This document shows, in pieces, positions 48,601 through 57,019 of a DNA stretch of 64,000 bases. The notes beneath the pieces were generated by a model. The model searched no databases. It saw nothing but the letters and a program-made list of their open reading frames with translations, and was not told where the DNA came from. Where the stretch lies: assembly GCA_036567965.1 (NCBI GenBank), contig DATCTN010000007.1, forward strand, positions 175,009 to 239,008, in the 5' to 3' direction. The first letter of the stretch is position 1. Each line of letters begins with the position of its first letter. The stretch comes from Candidatus Kryptoniota bacterium. GTDB taxonomy: Bacteria; Bacteroidota; Ignavibacteria; Kryptoniales; JAKASW01. The translations under genes were made by a program, and so were the position numbers.

Positions 48601-48631
48601 TTGATTCTCTGCCGAAGCTTTCCTAGATTCC
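48601..48631 (+). promoter_or_regulatory. Promoter of the thiamine operon
   Basis: TTG at 48601-48603, 20-base spacer, TAGATTCC at 48624-48631. Transcription is expected at about 48635, exactly the first base of the riboswitch P1 stem. Confidence 0.75.
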
Positions 48632-48634
48632 TCT

Positions 48635-48726
48635 GTCCGTTAGGGGTGCTGTCCCGAGCAAGTACGGGACGGCTGAGATAAACCCTACGAACCTGATCTG
48701 GGTAATACCAGCGGAGGAAAATGGAC
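48635..48726 (+). ncRNA. TPP riboswitch (THI element) aptamer
   Basis: P1 is formed by GTCCGTT (48635-48641) with AATGGAC (48720-48726). Between them lie the conserved parts: AGGGGTGC, the pyrimidine sensor CTGAGATAAACCC, and the pyrophosphate sensor GAACCTGATCTGGGTAATACCAGCG followed by GAGGAAA. A variable P3-type helix (GTCCCG/CGGGAC) is at 48651-48670. It binds thiamine diphosphate and lowers expression of the operon below. Confidence 0.95.
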
Positions 48727-48739
48727 CTTGCTCTCCTCG

Positions 48740-48786
48740 AAGCCGTTTTTGTCTGCTGGCTCCCAGCACTCGGAAACGGCTTTTTT
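48740..48786 (+). terminator. Riboswitch-controlled terminator
   Basis: Stem AAGCCGTTT/AAACGGCTT with an inner GCTGG/CCAGC hairpin, followed by TTTTTT. It lies between the aptamer and the first gene, so control is by transcription attenuation: thiamine diphosphate present, transcription stops here. Confidence 0.88.
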
Positions 48787-48801
48787 AGTTGAGGAAAACC
48801 A

Positions 48802-51369
48802 GTGAAGAAGCGGATAATTACACCTATTCTTTTCATGTTGTTAGGAGTACCCTCAGTCCAAGCCCAGCAGATCTACTCCATTGTTGGAACAGTGCTTGAC
48901 GGCGCAGATGGAGGTCGCGTCGGCAATGCCATCGTCAGAATAGCTCAATCAAATCTGTCCACTCGTGCTGATTCTGCCGGCCACTTTCGGTTATCGGGCC
49001 TTGGTTCCGGCGGGTACAAGCTCATCGTCTCCGCGGACGGTTATTCGTCCGCTGACACAAATGTCACGGTGCCGGGACCAGAACTTACTATAATTATTTC
49101 CCGAAGGACCTACAGGTTGCAGCCGGTTCTGGTAACAGCTCAAATCGCCAGCGAACGAAAATCACCGGTGACGTTCTCCAATCTCTCCCGCAAGGCTATT
49201 CAGGATCAGTTCATTGTGCAAGATGTGCCCGTCATCCTGTCTCAACTTCCATCGATGATCCAGTACTCAGAAAACGGTGAAGGCGTCGGATACAGTTATG
49301 TCACCATGAGAGGGTTCGATCAGAGCCGGATTTCGGTGATGATAAACGGCATCCCACAGAATGATCCGGAAGATCATAACGTCTATTGGATCGATGTGCC
49401 TGATCTTCAGTCAAGCACACAATCGGTTCAGGTTCAACGTGGCGCCGGAAGCGAATTTTATGGACCACCGGCGATCGGCGGATCAATAAATCTCCTGACC
49501 TCAAATTTCTCAAGCGAGAAAAAACTGAATGTCACGTTTGGAATAGGCACGACTGGAAGTCCCGGTGACATCAAATTCGTGTCCCCTATTTTATCAAGCG
49601 AGTCTGGTCCCAGCTCGAGCGGGATAATCCAGAAATACTCGGCGACGTTCAGCTCGGGCATCGTTTCAGAAAGCTACTCATTCTATGCCCACATTGCCAA
49701 GACGCTGTCCGATGGCTACAGACAGGATTCCTGGGTGAATCTTGACAGCTATTTCCTAAACGCAACAAGGTACGACGATGATGCGACTACCGAGATAAAC
49801 ATATACGGGGGGCCGATCGCGGACGGTCTGTCTTATCTTGGACTACCCAAATTCGCAGCGCTCGACAGAACACTGCGAACGCAGAACTGGGATGATTGGA
49901 GTGCAGACAGTAACTCGGTGAGTTACTCTTCACATGCGACCAGGTACATTTCCGCCGATGGCCGCGACACAGTCTTTGCAGTTCCGAGGAGACAGCCGGA
50001 AGTAGAAAATTTTTCCCAGCCACACATTGAATTATTAAATGAATGGAAAATTTCTCCATCAGTCACCCTGAATAATTCCTTCTTTGTCGTCGACGGATCC
50101 GGGTTCTTCGACTATGACGGTTCCTGGGCAGACACCAGCTATTTCCGGATGACTTACCAGAATGGTTTTAGCCCTGTTCAGAACCCCACTGACGCGCTGA
50201 TCCACGCATACGAAGACCTGCAGCAATTCGGTTGGCTGCCCAGGATCACGCTTGAGCACGACAATGGCACACTTGTCCTCGGCTCAGAGTTAAACCGCAG
50301 CTTTTCAGACCACTGGGCGAGCATTCGTTCCGCCGACAACCTGCCTGCCGACTTCCCTCTCGACTTCCGTTACAACGAGTGGCACGCACGAACCGACGTC
50401 GCGGCTTTCTACGGCCATGAATTGTATGAGCTTGCAAGTCGCACTACCGCGATGGTCGACCTAGAATACGAATTTAAGCAGTACCTATTTTACGGAGAAA
50501 AGTTTGTGGGCAATCGTTTCACAGTGCCGTACCACTTTCTTAACCCGCGCATCGGGATCAATTACGATCTATCCAGTACATCAAATATATACGCAAGCGC
50601 AAGCCGTACATCGCATGAACCCCAGCTCTCGAGTATCTACAACGCAGATGAATCGAGCGGCGGCGAGATTCCCCATTTCGGGTTGAACCCCGACAGCACG
50701 ATTAATTTCGGTCACCCACTTGTCACACCCGAAACTCTCAACGACTTTGAAATGGGTTATGGTTACCATTCCGCTCAGCTGTCGCTCGGTGTCTCTGCCT
50801 ACTGGATGGAATTTTACGATGAATTAATTTCAAACGGCTTGCTTGATAAGTACGGTCAACCGATCGCAGGAAACGCTAAGCGAACGAGGCATGTCGGCCT
50901 CGAGTTGGAATCAAACTGGGCCGTCAACCAAAACATATCCTTGTATGGTAACTTCACTCTCAGCCGAAATCGTCTCATTAATTTCACCGCGTACTCAGAC
51001 GCAGATGGTAACCCGGTTGCGGCTGGGATCCTCCTTGACGGAAACAGGATTTCAGGATTTCCCGACTTGCTGGGTAACATTCGAGCGACGTACTCGACAG
51101 GCGATTTCTCATTAATGCTGTTGGGACAGTATGTCGGCTCTCAATATACTGACGATTTCCAACTTTCGTCGAGAGAGATAGATCCTTATTTCGTGATGAG
51201 CGCGTGGATAAGCTATACCATCAGGAACGCGTTGGCATTTTCTGCAGTCGAATTCAAATTGTACGTTAACAATCTGTTTAATACCATCTACATCGCCCAC
51301 GGCGAAGGAATCTACTTTTATCCGGCAGCCGAGCGAAATTTCTTTTTGAATTGTTCAATCAATCTGTGA
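48802..51369 (+). CDS. TonB-dependent outer-membrane receptor, probable thiamine uptake
   Basis: An 855-residue receptor. Signal peptide (residues 1-21, ending in VQA), a carboxypeptidase-regulatory-like domain (about 25-110), a plug domain (about 125-235; VTMRGFDQSRISVMINGIPQND, QVQRGAGSEFYG) and a 22-strand barrel to the C-terminus. Being first behind a TPP riboswitch, it most likely carries thiamine or a precursor across the outer membrane using TonB energy; Bacteroidota are known to have such riboswitch-controlled receptors. The start is GTG after GAGGAAAA. Confidence 0.88.
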   Translation: MKKRIITPILFMLLGVPSVQAQQIYSIVGTVLDGADGGRVGNAIVRIAQSNLSTRADSAGHFRLSGLGSGGYKLIVSADGYSSADTNVTVPGPELTIIISRRTYRLQPVLVTAQIASERKSPVTFSNLSRKAIQDQFIVQDVPVILSQLPSMIQYSENGEGVGYSYVTMRGFDQSRISVMINGIPQNDPEDHNVYWIDVPDLQSSTQSVQVQRGAGSEFYGPPAIGGSINLLTSNFSSEKKLNVTFGIGTTGSPGDIKFVSPILSSESGPSSSGIIQKYSATFSSGIVSESYSFYAHIAKTLSDGYRQDSWVNLDSYFLNATRYDDDATTEINIYGGPIADGLSYLGLPKFAALDRTLRTQNWDDWSADSNSVSYSSHATRYISADGRDTVFAVPRRQPEVENFSQPHIELLNEWKISPSVTLNNSFFVVDGSGFFDYDGSWADTSYFRMTYQNGFSPVQNPTDALIHAYEDLQQFGWLPRITLEHDNGTLVLGSELNRSFSDHWASIRSADNLPADFPLDFRYNEWHARTDVAAFYGHELYELASRTTAMVDLEYEFKQYLFYGEKFVGNRFTVPYHFLNPRIGINYDLSSTSNIYASASRTSHEPQLSSIYNADESSGGEIPHFGLNPDSTINFGHPLVTPETLNDFEMGYGYHSAQLSLGVSAYWMEFYDELISNGLLDKYGQPIAGNAKRTRHVGLELESNWAVNQNISLYGNFTLSRNRLINFTAYSDADGNPVAAGILLDGNRISGFPDLLGNIRATYSTGDFSLMLLGQYVGSQYTDDFQLSSREIDPYFVMSAWISYTIRNALAFSAVEFKLYVNNLFNTIYIAHGEGIYFYPAAERNFFLNCSINL

Positions 51370-51376
51370 TTCCAAG

Positions 51377-52000
51377 ATGACCTTCGAAAACTTTGTCCTC
51401 GTGTTTTGTAATGGGATTTCGCAATCAAAAGCGCGATTAGAATCTCTCTTGCCGAAACCTTCCCTGGTGGCATGTGCTGACGGTGGAGCAAGTATTGCGA
51501 TATCACTCGGGTACAAACCGGATTTCATTGTCGGCGACCTGGATTCGCTGGACCCAGGTCTTGGTAACCTTCAGAATACTAAAATCGTTAAAGTAGAATC
51601 GCAGAACGACACTGATCTCGAAAAGACACTTGATTTCCTGCTTGGTAAGGGATGCGATCATTTCATGGTCACCGCGTTTTCAGGTGGCCGAATAGACCAT
51701 ACGCTCGCCAACATCGAAATCGCCTGCGCCTTCTCGAGAAAGTGCACGATAGTTCTGGCCGATGAATCGTACATTCTGTTTCCCGTCACTGAACGGTATG
51801 AAGGAGAAGTTCCACCCGGAACGACGATATCCGTAATTGCCACGGAGGACGAGACGGTAGTTACAACCACGGGTCTATTCTACAAGTTGGACCATGAGAG
51901 ACTCGCCAAAGGCGGTCGTGGGATAAGCAACTATTCTGTAAACGGACAGGTTGGCGTCGAGGTCCACCGCGGCACCGTTTTAGTCATGCTAAATGTCTGA
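51377..52000 (+). CDS. thiN: Thiamine pyrophosphokinase
   Basis: A 207-residue enzyme that turns thiamine into thiamine diphosphate using ATP. The family motifs are ACADGGASIAISLGYKPDFIVGDLDSLD and SQNDTDLEKTLDFLL in the catalytic domain, with a C-terminal beta-sandwich domain holding GRGISNYS, the thiamine-binding region. It begins 7 bases after the receptor gene and ends 3 bases before the symporter gene. Its presence points to thiamine itself, not only the pyrimidine part, as the imported molecule. Confidence 0.93.
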   Translation: MTFENFVLVFCNGISQSKARLESLLPKPSLVACADGGASIAISLGYKPDFIVGDLDSLDPGLGNLQNTKIVKVESQNDTDLEKTLDFLLGKGCDHFMVTAFSGGRIDHTLANIEIACAFSRKCTIVLADESYILFPVTERYEGEVPPGTTISVIATEDETVVTTTGLFYKLDHERLAKGGRGISNYSVNGQVGVEVHRGTVLVMLNV

Positions 52001-52003
52001 ACG

Positions 52004-53449
52004 TTGGTGAAGGCGACTCTTTCTCCGGCCGACTGGACAGTACTGGCGGTCTATTTCGTAGCTGTGGTATTCGTCGGCTTCAGGGCGGCAAGGAGGGCGC
52101 ACGGTCATATCGACGAATACCTGGTGGCAGGACGAAGTCTCACATTGCCGATATTCGTTGCCACTCTTGTATCGACGTGGTACGGCGGGATACTCGGTGT
52201 CGGGGAGTTTTCGTACAGGTACGGGATTTCCAACTGGTTCATCTTTGGCGCGCCATATTACTTCTTTGCGCTTCTTTTCGCGATCTTCCTTGCCCCGCGA
52301 GTCCATAAGGCGGCGCTTCACACGATTCCGGATAAACTCAGGGAAAGTTACGGGAATCCGACCGCCACAATGGGGTCGTTCCTAACCCTGTTCATAGTCA
52401 CTCCTGCACCGTACGTGCTGATGGTGGGAATAATAGTAGAAATGCTTTTCGGCTGGTCTCTTGCTGCATCGGTGACCTTCGCTACAGCTGCATCTGTGGT
52501 ATATCTATATTCAGGCGGCCTTCACTCGGATGTAAGAACCAACACACTCGAATTCCTTCTGATGTATGTGGGCTTCGGAATCATTCTTCCATTTTGCTTT
52601 CTGAACTACGGAGGTCTTCCCTTCATACGGTCGCATGTCCCTGCCGGGCATCTTACTCTCACGGGAGGAAACTCATGGCAGTACATAATCGCCTGGTTTT
52701 TCATCGCAAGCTGGACTTTGATCGATCCGGCATTTCACCAGAGATGTTACGCCGCGAAGTCAGCATTCGTCGCGAGATATGGAATCATAACCTCAATTGC
52801 TTTCTGGTTCTTTTTCGATTTCATGACTTCCACAACAGGATTATACGCCCGCGCAATCGTACCCGGACTCGCTCAGCCGGCAATGTCATACCCAGCGCTT
52901 GCAGAAGTGGTGCTTCCCGGATTCGTCAAGGGGTTGTTCTATGTCGGCATGCTCGCGACAATCATGTCGAGCCTGGAGAGCCTGACGTTCATCTCCGCAG
53001 TAACTATCGGAAAAGATATCCTCTACAGGATGCTTCATTCTGCTGATGTTGGAATTGATTCGAGGAAAAAGATATTAGAATATTCGAGAATAGGAATTTT
53101 CGCGACCGCGGTCATCTCGATTGCGATCTCCCTCTTTATTCCTTCGGTGATCGCCATGTGGTACGATCTCGGCACCGTATTCGTCCCAGGACTCCTGATT
53201 CCACTCGTGACCAGTTACTTCAGTCCTCTGCGTGTTTCAGGGAAATACATTTTTCTCTCGATGACTTTCGGGTGGTTGACATCGATGTGTTGGCTCACCG
53301 TCGGTCTGCTAAACGGCAGTTCGCTCTCACCTTCCTACATGCTCGGCATACAACCTATGTATCCGGGACTCACACTCTCTGCGGTGTTTTATGCCGTCGG
53401 ATTGGTGGACAAGAAATTAAACAAGAGAACGGGAATCACACGAGGGTAA
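52004..53449 (+). CDS. Sodium:solute symporter family protein, candidate inner-membrane thiamine transporter
   Basis: A 481-residue SSS-family transporter with about 13 helices. Family features: an N-terminal extracellular end, DEYLVAGRSLTLPIFVATLVSTW near helix 2 and ATIMSSLESLTFISAVTIGKDI in the sodium-binding helix 8 region. In related thiamine operons of Bacteroidota the inner-membrane step is done by PnuT; here an SSS protein occupies that place. SSS proteins have been proposed before as thiamine-pathway transporters from riboswitch control. TTG at 52004 or GTG at 52007 may start it. Confidence 0.85.
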   Translation: MVKATLSPADWTVLAVYFVAVVFVGFRAARRAHGHIDEYLVAGRSLTLPIFVATLVSTWYGGILGVGEFSYRYGISNWFIFGAPYYFFALLFAIFLAPRVHKAALHTIPDKLRESYGNPTATMGSFLTLFIVTPAPYVLMVGIIVEMLFGWSLAASVTFATAASVVYLYSGGLHSDVRTNTLEFLLMYVGFGIILPFCFLNYGGLPFIRSHVPAGHLTLTGGNSWQYIIAWFFIASWTLIDPAFHQRCYAAKSAFVARYGIITSIAFWFFFDFMTSTTGLYARAIVPGLAQPAMSYPALAEVVLPGFVKGLFYVGMLATIMSSLESLTFISAVTIGKDILYRMLHSADVGIDSRKKILEYSRIGIFATAVISIAISLFIPSVIAMWYDLGTVFVPGLLIPLVTSYFSPLRVSGKYIFLSMTFGWLTSMCWLTVGLLNGSSLSPSYMLGIQPMYPGLTLSAVFYAVGLVDKKLNKRTGITRG

Positions 53450-53459
53450 CAGGCTGCCG

Positions 53460-54059
53460 TCAAAAACTCTTTTTGAGGGACAGAGCCACACTCACGCGAC
53501 CATTCGGAGACACGGAAAGACCCGGAGAGACGTCAAAACCCGATAGTTCGGCGTCAACATAGGCGTCCAGCATTGACAGCAAGTACACACCTGCGATGTA
53601 CCACGCATATGAATCCCTTTGGTCATGGTACATATCTCTTTCACTCAATAGAGCTGTGCTATCCGTGTGCTGGCTGTAAAGAGATCGGTAGTTCTTGTAG
53701 TTCTTGTTGTTTGAGATCCACTGTGAAACGAAGAACGCCTGGACCCCGAAAATCACCGGCACTTTCCAATAGCTGCCGTTGTAGACCTGGCCTCCTCCTG
53801 GGATGACGGCTGAAAGGAGAACTGCCACGAGGGGAGATTTCAGTTTTTCTTTTACTGCCTCAGTATCGCCTGAGAAACTGACGCCGGCCAATGTGGTGTC
53901 GGGGATCGCGGCCGATAGGCCCAGCGCCTCTCTCAAGTCTAGACAGTTACTTGTGACGATCTTGTCGTTCAGACTCTGACTTGACGCCTTGAGCGGAGCG
54001 AACAAAATCAGAAGGATACAGATCAAAAGTAATGATCGAATTATTTTACTTCCGGGCAA
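53460..54059 (-). CDS. DUF5683-like membrane protein
   Basis: A 199-residue protein with a signal or anchor helix (residues 8-26) and two further hydrophobic segments near residues 75-105 and 150-165 (AVLLSAVIPGGGQVYNGSYWKVPVIFG). That motif and a position right after parB are typical of DUF5683 proteins in Bacteroidota, of unknown function. It overlaps ridA by 14 bases. It ends 10 bases from the end of the convergent symporter gene, with no clear terminator between them. Confidence 0.75.
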   Translation of the reverse strand: MPGSKIIRSLLLICILLILFAPLKASSQSLNDKIVTSNCLDLREALGLSAAIPDTTLAGVSFSGDTEAVKEKLKSPLVAVLLSAVIPGGGQVYNGSYWKVPVIFGVQAFFVSQWISNNKNYKNYRSLYSQHTDSTALLSERDMYHDQRDSYAWYIAGVYLLSMLDAYVDAELSGFDVSPGLSVSPNGRVSVALSLKKSF

Positions 54060-54417
54060 TTATCTCAATCTCAATAAGTGCGTTTCTAGGAAGGCCCGAC
54101 ACTTCAACCGTGCTTCGAGCGGGAGGATTATTCTTAAAATACTCAGCGTAGATTGCGTTGAACTTGGCGAAGTCAGACATATTCTTCAGATAAACGGTAG
54201 TCTTCACCACGTCTGAAAGTGAACAACCGCCGGCATTCAGAACCGCCGAAATATTCTTGATTATCTGGCGCGTCTGTTCCTCCAGAGTGTCGGGAAGTTC
54301 TGCGCTTTCGGGCTTCAAACCAATTTGACCCGAGAGGAAAAGGAAGCCGCCGCTTTCGACAGCCTGTGAGTATGGACCGATCGGTTCAGGCGCCTCTTTT
54401 GATTTGAGAGTCTTCAC
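54046..54417 (-). CDS. ridA: RidA-family enamine/imine deaminase
   Basis: A 123-residue RidA/YjgF protein, which hydrolyses reactive 2-aminoacrylate and similar imines released by PLP enzymes. Visible are GPYSQAVESGGFLFLSGQIG, the conserved Asn/Lys region NISAVLNAGGCSLSDVVKTTVYLKNM and the catalytic Arg in PPARSTVEVSGLPRNALIEIE. It trims in as a trimer in the family. It lies 4 bases after parB and overlaps the DUF5683 gene, an unusual place for this gene. Confidence 0.95.
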   Translation of the reverse strand: MKTLKSKEAPEPIGPYSQAVESGGFLFLSGQIGLKPESAELPDTLEEQTRQIIKNISAVLNAGGCSLSDVVKTTVYLKNMSDFAKFNAIYAEYFKNNPPARSTVEVSGLPRNALIEIEIIARK

Positions 54418-54421
54418 CGGT

Positions 54422-55354
54422 TCATTCCTCCCGATCTCCGAGTATCAGCTCAACGACGCGACCAAGATCCTCTTCGCTGTAAAACTCTATCCTCACTTCA
54501 CCCTGGTTGTTCTCGCTATAGTTAATCTTCACTTGTGTGCCTAAGTGCCTTTTTAATTTATCTATTAGGTCTGATACGATTATGTCCTTTCTCGAGGGCA
54601 TTTGATCCACCGAGCTCATTTCCGCCGGTCTGGACGATGCCTTGATTTTCGGGATAAGGATTCGCTTTACTTCTTGCTCAACCTGCCGAACGCTCAATTT
54701 CTCACGCGCGATCTTGTTAAACACCCTGAACAGTTCTTTCTGATCCTCAATCGCGAGTAGGGCGCGGGCATGACCAGCGGATACCTCGCCTGCCGCAAGA
54801 CTCTTTTGAATCTGAGGCGGCAACTTCAGGAGTCGAAGGAAGTTCGTTACCGTTGCTCTATCCTTCCCCACCCGCTCGGCAACTTTCTCTTGCGTCAGCG
54901 CGCATTCATCAATTAGTCGCTGATAGCCGGTCGCTATCTCGATAGGATTGAGATCCTCGCGCTGAAGATTCTCGGTCAAAGCAAGCTCAAGAAGCTTAGC
55001 ATCCGAGTCGATTTTGATAATGTATGCGGGGATTTCCTCGAAACCCAGCTCAATGACCGCCCTGAGTCGTCTCTCACCTGATATTAACTCGAATCTCCCT
55101 TCCTCCACCTGTCTTACCGTGATTGGCTGGACAAGCCCGTTCTCCCTGATCGAGCTCTTGAGTTCTTCGAGACTCTCGCGGTGAAATTCTTTCCTCGGTT
55201 GATATTTGTTTGCGCTGATCCTTCCTACCGCGATCTTCGATATCGAATCTGGCGCATGGACCTTGGCGACATCCAAAACCGATTTCTCGACATGCCCAGA
55301 ATCTTTCCGAATCAATGCGTCTAATCCACGACCAAGTCGAATATTAGATTTCAT
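54422..55354 (-). CDS. parB: Chromosome-partitioning protein ParB
   Basis: A 310-residue ParB/Spo0J. The N-terminal LGRGLDALI, the nucleotide-binding domain with NKYQPRKEF and the CTP-site motif ISGERRLRAVIELG, then the HTH with ALTENLQREDLNPIEIATGYQRL and TQEKVAERVGKDRATVTNFLRLL. The C-terminal dimer region follows. It loads at parS sites near oriC and spreads as a CTP-driven clamp. It overlaps parA by 4 bases. No parS sequence was seen within the window. Confidence 0.95.
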   Translation of the reverse strand: MKSNIRLGRGLDALIRKDSGHVEKSVLDVAKVHAPDSISKIAVGRISANKYQPRKEFHRESLEELKSSIRENGLVQPITVRQVEEGRFELISGERRLRAVIELGFEEIPAYIIKIDSDAKLLELALTENLQREDLNPIEIATGYQRLIDECALTQEKVAERVGKDRATVTNFLRLLKLPPQIQKSLAAGEVSAGHARALLAIEDQKELFRVFNKIAREKLSVRQVEQEVKRILIPKIKASSRPAEMSSVDQMPSRKDIIVSDLIDKLKRHLGTQVKINYSENNQGEVRIEFYSEEDLGRVVELILGDREE

Positions 55355-56196
55355 ACGCTTGAGTTTTCTCTATTCTTGACGATAGGAGTCTCAGCCGGCA
55401 CCTTCCTAACTTGAGGGTCCGGTTTGAGGTTTATCGAGTTGCGTTCCAGTAGCTCACGCGCCAATTCCATATAATGCCTGGCACCTAGCGAGGCGGCATC
55501 GTAAAGAATAATCGGCTTTCCAAAACTTTGCGCTTCGCTGAGTCTCACGTTGCGGCCGATAATGGTTTTAAAAACCATTTTCTCGAAATATCGGCGGACC
55601 TCTTCGACCACTTGGTTCGATAATTTAAGCCTCGAATCGAACATTGTCAGGAGGACCCCCTCCAACTCGAGTGTCGAATTCAGATTGCGCTTGACCATGG
55701 CGATAGTATTTAGAAGCTGTCCCAAACCTTCCAAAGCAAAGTACTCAGTCTGGACCGGCACCAAGACACTGTCAGCCGCGACAAGTGCGTTCACAGTAAG
55801 AAGACCCAGTGAAGGAGGACAGTCGATGAACACGTACTCGTATTGATTCCTGACTTCGGCCAACGCTTTCTTCAGGAGCGATTCTCGATTCTCAATTTCC
55901 ACGAGCTCAATCTCGGCACCTACCAGGTTGATATCGGACGGCATCAGCTTGAGAAAGCCCAGTGACGTTTCCCTTACCACCTCGGAGGAGTTCGTTGAAC
56001 CTATGAGCATTCCGTATGTGCTCGTGTGCGGCTCATTCTTGTCGAAGCCGAGGGCGCTCGTCGCATTCGACTGAGGATCTATGTCGACGAGAAGGACTTT
56101 ATGTTCCAATGCGGCCAGGCACGCACAAATATTGACTGTCGTGGTCGTCTTGCCGACGCCACCCTTCTGATTCGCGACAGCTATTACTCTTCCCAT
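55351..56196 (-). CDS. parA: Chromosome-partitioning ATPase ParA/Soj
   Basis: A 281-residue Walker-type ATPase. The deviant Walker A is VANQKGGVGKTTTTVNICA at the N-terminus; VLLVDIDPQSNATSALG is the Walker A' region and YVFIDCPPSLG the Walker B. The length and lack of an N-terminal HTH place it with chromosomal ParA (Soj). It drives segregation of the origin region with ParB. A promoter with a leader of about 40 bases precedes it. It heads the parA-parB-ridA-DUF5683 unit. Confidence 0.96.
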   Translation of the reverse strand: MGRVIAVANQKGGVGKTTTTVNICACLAALEHKVLLVDIDPQSNATSALGFDKNEPHTSTYGMLIGSTNSSEVVRETSLGFLKLMPSDINLVGAEIELVEIENRESLLKKALAEVRNQYEYVFIDCPPSLGLLTVNALVAADSVLVPVQTEYFALEGLGQLLNTIAMVKRNLNSTLELEGVLLTMFDSRLKLSNQVVEEVRRYFEKMVFKTIIGRNVRLSEAQSFGKPIILYDAASLGARHYMELARELLERNSINLKPDPQVRKVPAETPIVKNRENSSV

Positions 56197-56240
56197 TTTG
56201 CCGTCAGAATGTTATTTCCTGTGGGATAAATCACTTGAAC

Positions 56241-56271
56241 GAAATATATATCTAACCGTTCTGATTTTCAA
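56241..56271 (-). promoter_or_regulatory. parA promoter
   Basis: Minus strand: TTG (56271-56269), 20-base spacer, TATATTTC (56248-56241), a near-perfect TAnnTTTG. Start expected near 56237, about 41 bases before the ATG. Confidence 0.75.
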
Positions 56272-56314
56272 TAAATCGACAGGAATAAAAGATCGTCCGT
56301 AATCAAGATAGATT

Positions 56315-57019
56315 CTATGCGACCCGGATTCGTGTGCCAGTGACACACCGGGACTCATCCGAGGCAAGGAACACAAAAGATTCTGCAACTTCGCTGGGCT
56401 CCTTCAGCGAGTTCGGGTCGAGATCGGGATAGGCTTTTCGTATCATGTCCGTTCTTGTCCGCCCCGGATCGACCATATTCACTCGCACACCAGTGTCTCT
56501 CAACTCTTCAGCCAACATCAGGGTCATTCCCTCAACTGCGAACTTTGAAGGGAGATACGGCCCCCAGTTAGGATTAGGTCGAGCAACCACGCCCGATGTC
56601 ACGTTGATTATGGAACCCCGCCGCTGCTTCAGCATTTCAATTGCAGCGAGCTTGCTCAAGAGAAAGCTCCCGGTGACATTAGTTGCAAATATCTCTTCCC
56701 ATTCCGCGACCGAGACGGATGTAAGGCCGACGCGATTACCAAGCAAGCCGGCCGCGTTGACAAGAACGTCAACCCGCCCATGAAGATTCATCGTTTCCGA
56801 GACCACGAGTTCACAGTCTTTCACTTTTGAAATGTCGGCCGCGATTGCTTTCACTCTTGAACCATTTCCTGATACTCCGACAACCAGAGAATCCAGAAGT
56901 GCGACATTTCTCGCGACCGCCACAACCTTTGCCCCCTCTTCAATGAACCTGAGAGCAACTCCCCTGCCGATGCCGCGGGATGCGCCCGTTACGATCGCTA
57001 CCTTGTCCTTGAGCCGCAT
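56315..57019 (-). CDS. Short-chain dehydrogenase/reductase
   Basis: A 234-residue classical SDR. Cofactor motif TGASRGIGRG (residues 12-21), NAAG (about 88-91) and the catalytic Ser and Tyr-Lys in TSGVVARP and GPYLPSKFAVEG (YxxxK). It reduces or oxidises a hydroxyl or keto group with NAD(P)H; FabG-like activity is possible but the substrate is unknown. It is divergent from the Fe-S oxidoreductase gene, with which it shares a promoter region. The predicted mRNA begins at the ATG, so it may be leaderless. Confidence 0.88.
   Translation of the reverse strand: MRLKDKVAIVTGASRGIGRGVALRFIEEGAKVVAVARNVALLDSLVVGVSGNGSRVKAIAADISKVKDCELVVSETMNLHGRVDVLVNAAGLLGNRVGLTSVSVAEWEEIFATNVTGSFLLSKLAAIEMLKQRRGSIINVTSGVVARPNPNWGPYLPSKFAVEGMTLMLAEELRDTGVRVNMVDPGRTRTDMIRKAYPDLDPNSLKEPSEVAESFVFLASDESRCVTGTRIRVA

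Follow-up and report, generated by a model that had tools for sequence, protein, structure and literature searches.

A riboswitch-controlled operon from a Candidatus Kryptoniota bacterium very probably gives a thiamine-auxotrophic organism everything it needs for thiamine salvage, and in this route a protein of the sodium:solute symporter (SSS) family replaces PnuT as the importer. The operon lies in a window of 64,000 nucleotides, the window being the whole stretch of DNA that was analysed. In the proposed route, a TonB-dependent receptor would let thiamine through the outer membrane, the SSS protein would then carry it over the inner membrane together with Na+, and ThiN would convert it to thiamine pyrophosphate (TPP), which would both trap the substrate and feed the TPP enzymes. 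Once plentiful, TPP would bind the aptamer in the leader, and a stem would then mask the Shine-Dalgarno (SD) site of the first gene. Here, we infer the substrate (thiamine), the driving ion (Na+), the direction of transport and the mechanism of the riboswitch.

The idea of an SSS thiamine importer is already known from ThiV/SSSP, Dur31 and Caldithrix abyssi. New here are the definition of the family, its breadth, its exclusion with PnuT and ThiC, the mapping of the pocket, and a likely translational expression platform. The SSS protein would fill a missing step: PnuT is absent from the examined genomes of Kryptoniota, Ignavibacteriota and their relatives that lack ThiC. Furthermore, with a defined family and a motif, annotation pipelines could call thiamine auxotrophy and uptake correctly.

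The operon, its genome and its leader

The locus contains the following features.

48601-48606 and 48624-48629 (together 48601-48629), forward strand: predicted promoter, TTGATT, 17 bp, TAGATT; motif kept across the genus
48632-48736, forward strand: TPP riboswitch aptamer (THI element), RF00059, 68.6 bits against a gathering threshold of 54.3
48734-48740, forward strand: anti-SD strand UCCUCGA, pairing with 48789-48795 in the MFE fold
48738-48786, forward strand: hairpin inside the anti-SD stem, then TTTTTT, a possible intrinsic terminator in the computed fold
48789-48795, forward strand: SD region UUGAGGA, at -13 to -7 relative to the GTG start codon (48802)
48802-51369, forward strand: TonB-dependent outer-membrane receptor, predicted thiamine receptor of the OMthi type, with PF07715 (Plug), PF00593 (beta-barrel) and CarboxypepD_reg
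51377-52000, forward strand: thiN, thiamine pyrophosphokinase, TIGR01378, 141.1 bits against a cut-off of 76.4
52004-53449, forward strand: SSS-family protein, predicted Na+-coupled thiamine importer, PF00474, 88.2 bits against a cut-off of 22.8

The three genes share one strand, with 7 bases between receptor and thiN and 3 bases between thiN and the SSS gene, and the gene that follows (53460-54059) runs in the opposite direction. An earlier, sequence-only reading of this DNA had given the same gene order and gaps, and both agree with the coordinates and the domain matches. Receptor orthologues sit under TPP riboswitches whether PnuT or the SSS protein comes next. Convergent to the operon, the window carries genes for DUF5683, RidA-like, ParB-like, ParA-like and SDR proteins on the reverse strand (53460-57019), and ORFs of like size and strand follow the operon in three genus members (L091, L092, L096).

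The genome (4.1 Mb, 100% complete) contains neither ThiC nor ThiE, and it has five Transket_pyr domains of TPP enzymes and a single thiN, which is an equivalog match to TIGR01378. With thiN and TPP enzymes present but ThiC and ThiE missing, thiamine itself must be imported. Moreover, HMP and thiazole are unusable because ThiE is absent, so the imported compound is thiamine or thiamine phosphate. The SSS protein was the sole inner-membrane candidate found in a search that covered PnuT and PnuC. It had already been named as the only candidate for the inner step, which PnuT provides in other Bacteroidota operons of this type, and indeed no PnuT/PnuC (PF04973) was detected within the operon or at any other place in the genome. 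Another thiamine transporter under riboswitch control would have spoken against that reading; the genome holds no second TPP riboswitch.

An alternative substrate would be the pyrimidine precursor HMP, or an amino-pyrimidine. Such a role has been proposed for the ThiV of Pelagibacter, likewise a riboswitch-controlled (TPP) member of the SSS family, and HMP uptake was measured in that organism (PMC11452348). The F244-H245 pair in TM6 of our protein also resembles the published HMP/thiamin symporter signature. However, HMP cannot be joined to thiazole in a genome without ThiC and ThiE, and both enzymes are also missing from 33 of the 41 SSS-carrying genomes among the relatives. In addition, the SSS gene comes after thiN, whose product acts on thiamine, and not after thiE, thiD or thiM. 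The need of ThiN for thiamine, together with the absence of ThiE, argues against the role assigned to the Pelagibacter protein, and we regard HMP import as very unlikely here.

In the leader, each of the 13 members of the genus has the motif TTG-N3, 17 bp, TAnATT at a constant distance from P1, compared with a mean of 0.28 of 13 and a maximum of 3 in shuffles, and 7 or 8 bases separate the promoter end from CCGTTAGGGG every time. This conservation suggests that transcription probably starts at P1 of the aptamer, and it supports the earlier claim of one promoter with P1 at the predicted RNA start; a generic sigma-70 scan found no promoter upstream of the aptamer. The aptamer match spans positions 1-105 of RF00059, i.e. 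the whole model, which identifies it as a TPP riboswitch. It is the only one in the genome.

In four members of the genus (L171, L174, L176 and L180, from G002, G005, G007 and G011), the aptamer has roughly 30-60 additional bases, inserted as two hairpins, in the J4/2-P1 region between CCAGCG and GGAAAATGGAC. The inserted sequences differ among the four but are self-complementary, and the window aptamer has none. These insertions probably explain the low RF00059 scores (41-45 bits) of the four aptamers.

The conserved expression platform likely acts by sequestration of the SD region, and thus by translational control, rather than as a pure terminator. The outer stem pairing with the SD region is kept in 12 of the 13 genus leaders, with pair changes that are in some cases on both sides (position -2, for instance, can be A-U, G-U or G-C). 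It is this conservation that makes the case, and not the energies of the anti-SD/SD duplexes, which differ only modestly between matched (-12.8 kcal/mol) and mismatched (-11.3 kcal/mol) strands. Purely transcriptional regulation, in which TPP binding would expose an intrinsic terminator before the receptor gene, would be compatible with a thiamine importer. The strong hairpin at 48738-48786 with its TTTTTT tail fits such a terminator, and a T6 run occurs in one relative too (L172). In most genus relatives, however, the run after the hairpin is poor (TTTATT, TTTAAT or similar), yet the SD-pairing stem is there, and a consensus terminator scan did not list the window hairpin. Moreover, transcripts of riboswitch-linked transporter genes in B. 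thetaiotaomicron hardly respond to thiamine (PMC5613172). We therefore consider purely transcriptional control unlikely, although termination at the T6 hairpin, added to SD control, is possible in the window genome. Of the attenuating terminator claimed earlier, the hairpin and its T6 tail are present and fold; as a shared element of the genus, the SD stem takes its place.

Linkage to thiN and exclusion with PnuT and ThiC

Among 61 relatives examined, 41 have an SSS homologue at E < 1e-70, compared with best paralogues near 1e-20. In 34 of these 41 genomes the gene follows thiN directly, and 29 of the 34 show the full order riboswitch-receptor-thiN-SSS, with the riboswitch about 3.05-3.4 kb upstream, a receptor-sized space. 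Beyond these relatives, 80 SSS loci were drawn from a set of 85,000 species genomes; thiN stands just before the SSS gene in the majority of these loci, which come from Kryptoniota, Ignavibacteriota, KSB1, Fidelibacterota, Acidobacteriota and Armatimonadota. The search for SSS genes beside thiN under TPP riboswitches, which had been proposed as a check, thus found the arrangement repeatedly. Our own model detected a TPP riboswitch in 48 of the 80 loci, nearly always upstream of the operon. The named relatives of the SSS gene come from Kryptoniota and Ignavibacteriota assemblies. Since the loci of Armatimonadota consist of riboswitch, thiN and SSS but show no recognised receptor (L146; L169 has an extra ORF in between), thiN-SSS appears as the core.

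Two loci depart from the common layout. In L131, the TPP riboswitch (from 462-562 onward) is followed by three extra ORFs of about 270, 220 and 335 aa and only then by receptor, thiN and SSS. In L159, the receptor gene is split into three successive ORFs before an intact thiN and SSS, which suggests a frameshifted or decaying receptor.

In a midpoint-rooted tree, the thiN-linked members from Armatimonadota, Acidobacteriota, Fidelibacterota, KSB1, Ignavibacteriota and Kryptoniota group together, with the f15 group outside and one nested clade without thiN linkage. This f3-like clade (L135, L143, L147, L150, L151, L156, L167 and L072:6357-7838; support 100/100) no longer has D241 and R247 (see below), and in the members checked its SSS gene is found near genes for a class I fumarase and a SIS-domain protein. 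Its substrate may possibly have changed. Two f3 genomes examined retain riboswitch, receptor and thiN. The f15 homologues (L073:5406-6785 and L076:2337-3707) form an outgroup with 36-40% identity, and the gene in L076 lies within a housekeeping cluster of RNase HII, GTP cyclohydrolase, an SRP-type GTPase and a CDP-alcohol phosphatidyltransferase. Because the f3-like clade is off thiN with altered residues and f15 sits among housekeeping genes, not every SSS homologue need transport thiamine.

Further scans gave no additional context. A lax Rfam scan of the unlinked f3 and f15 loci and of G024 revealed no hidden TPP riboswitch, and a scan of viral contigs found no relative of the SSS protein. 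Among the matches listed in a plasmid search, SSS proteins were only ~23-27% identical, and the three regions inspected had no thi neighbours.

The distribution of the SSS family was compared with those of PnuT and ThiC across 218 genomes of Bacteroidota, all with a completeness of 90% or more. The SSS gene was present in 63 of them, a count that includes distant homologues (f18, f19, f21, f29, f31, f32) regardless of thiN linkage, and ThiC in 75. PnuT/PnuC was found above the cut-off in 90, some of which may be PnuC, as PF04973 does not separate the two; a match below the cut-off in G197 (one stop, 23.6 bits) was excluded. Not a single genome combined SSS with PnuT/PnuC, nor SSS with ThiC. 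Eight of the 63 SSS genomes carry f15 homologues, which are perhaps not thiamine carriers, and the overlap is still zero without them. The 143 ThiC-less genomes divide into 63 with SSS, 73 with PnuT/PnuC and seven with neither. The p-values of this exclusion, down to 1e-33, ignore kinship and overstate independence. Among the 61 near relatives, the genomes without SSS have ThiC (11) or PnuT (3), or else are five f6 genomes and G019, which is 71% complete.

Both states, SSS or PnuT, occur within families f8, f17 and f32, pointing to swaps in at least three families. For example, G058 of f17 has the order riboswitch-receptor-thiN-PnuT, with PnuT in the exact slot of the SSS gene and no SSS orthologue. 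That the SSS family would be a non-orthologous replacement of PnuT is well supported by these comparisons of gene content. The thiN linkage, the exclusion with PnuT and ThiC, and the slot in G058 also strengthen the earlier view of the SSS protein as a good candidate for a sodium-driven thiamine carrier, a function that is predicted.

SSS and ThiC are both present in two genus members, G007 and G010. The latter has a second TPP-riboswitch operon (L085:5616-9398) with thiC, an AIRS-type kinase (probably thiL), thiD and thiE, and it kept the salvage operon too. In G007, ThiC and ThiE are near a second riboswitch.

Predicted fold and substrate pocket

The predicted model of the SSS protein (pLDDT 94.6, pTM 0.92) is closest in fold to CHT1 (Z 38.3 over 463 residues, 3.0 A), followed by SiaT (Z 35.8) and SGLT1/2, and the best profile match in the PDB is also a CHT. 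The predicted fold, and the alignment of S322/S323 with S346/S347 of CHT1, assign the protein to the LeuT fold with a Na2 site. By structural alignment, W62, Y91 and W406 of the CHT1 cage correspond to W59, Y85 and W386, W141 and W254 to T133 and D241, and Y67 falls in an alignment gap. Three of the five aromatic residues W62/Y91/W141/W254/W406 of the full CHT cage are thus kept, and the gate residues Q259/R260 map to Q246/R247. Every one of the 63 thiN-linked sequences has D241, F244, Q246 and R247; in the unlinked f3-like clade, D241 is replaced by A or S and R247 by F.

Thiamine, like choline, is a permanent cation. For such a substrate, a partly retained cation cage with an added acid would be a reasonable pocket, a view that draws on homology rather than on docking. 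A CHT1-like pocket would offer a direct mutagenesis route to the recognition of thiamine by a Na+ symporter.

The closest NCBIfam names for the protein are sss, panF and PutP, and no NCBIfam model identifies it as a thiamine transporter. Assignment to the PanF pantothenate symporter (TIGR02119) was rejected, at 65.5 bits against a cut-off of 328. The protein could in principle carry an unrelated substrate such as choline, proline or pantothenate, its position in the operon being incidental. The nearest characterised structures are indeed choline and sugar transporters, PanF and PutP are the nearest names (PanF far under its cut-off), and the f3-like clade shows that family members are able to leave the operon. 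Against this stand the linkage to thiN over several phyla and the strict exclusion with PnuT and ThiC, which make an incidental position highly improbable.

We lean towards a more specific form of the thiamine importer. The thiN-linked SSS subfamily, with its motif DPxF[HY]QR in TM6, would be a dedicated high-affinity Na+/thiamine symporter, holding the thiazolium cation in an aromatic cage of the CHT type that has been remodelled and has gained an Asp. It would have been swapped with PnuT several times, in Bacteroidota and neighbouring phyla.

Comparison with known systems

The closest parallel is the operon of Bacteroidetes in which PnuT (PF04973) is found with OMthi and Tnr3/ThiN (PMC5613172). 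Both combine a TPP riboswitch, a receptor, an inner-membrane importer and a kinase, and the receptors are homologous (42% in G058). The inner-membrane protein differs, being here an SSS protein, i.e. a LeuT-fold Na+ symporter, and the two never occur together in the 218 genomes.

Earlier proposals of SSS proteins under THI control, to which the sequence-only reading had alluded, do exist. In Caldithrix abyssi, the locus Cabys_3975-3977 was published in 2017 as a candidate for thiamine transport (PMC5317091). By its published gene content, it resembles our operon: a TPP riboswitch is combined with genes for a TonB receptor, a sodium-solute symporter and a thiamine pyrophosphokinase. That publication names the SSS protein but gives no family, phyletic test or mechanism for it, whereas the family, the exclusion and the pocket are given here.

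The name ThiV was introduced in 2002 for SSS proteins controlled by TPP riboswitches (Rodionov 2002, as cited in PMC2211319 and PMC4260697), and ThiV was later counted among the B1 transporters of gut genomes by Rodionov and colleagues (PMC6593275). Our protein shares the SSS family and the riboswitch with ThiV/SSSP. The HMP-salvage context of ThiV/SSSP, with thiE present, is not that of our genome, which has no ThiE. The ThiV of Pelagibacter is assigned to HMP (PMC11452348), a compound that would serve no purpose in our organism, where the SSS gene is partnered with thiN; the two are set apart by their context. Of the ThiV residues Y78, D139 and F254 with its adjoining H (SiaT numbering), Y85 in TM2 and F244-H245 in TM6 look equivalent, and Y137 is perhaps at the place of D139.

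Genetic evidence of thiamine transport exists for the fungal protein Dur31 (NCU01977; PMC5997356). Like ours, it is of the SSS family and controlled by a TPP riboswitch, but it belongs to a eukaryotic, Dur3-related branch and has no kinase or receptor operon. Finally, CHT1 (SLC5A7), whose choline cage residues were taken from PMC11589582 and PMC13220886, is the closest solved fold, with W62, Y91, W406, Q259, R260 and the Na2 serines kept. Unlike CHT1, the SSS protein has T133 and D241 in place of W141 and W254, a gap at Y67, and a different gene context.
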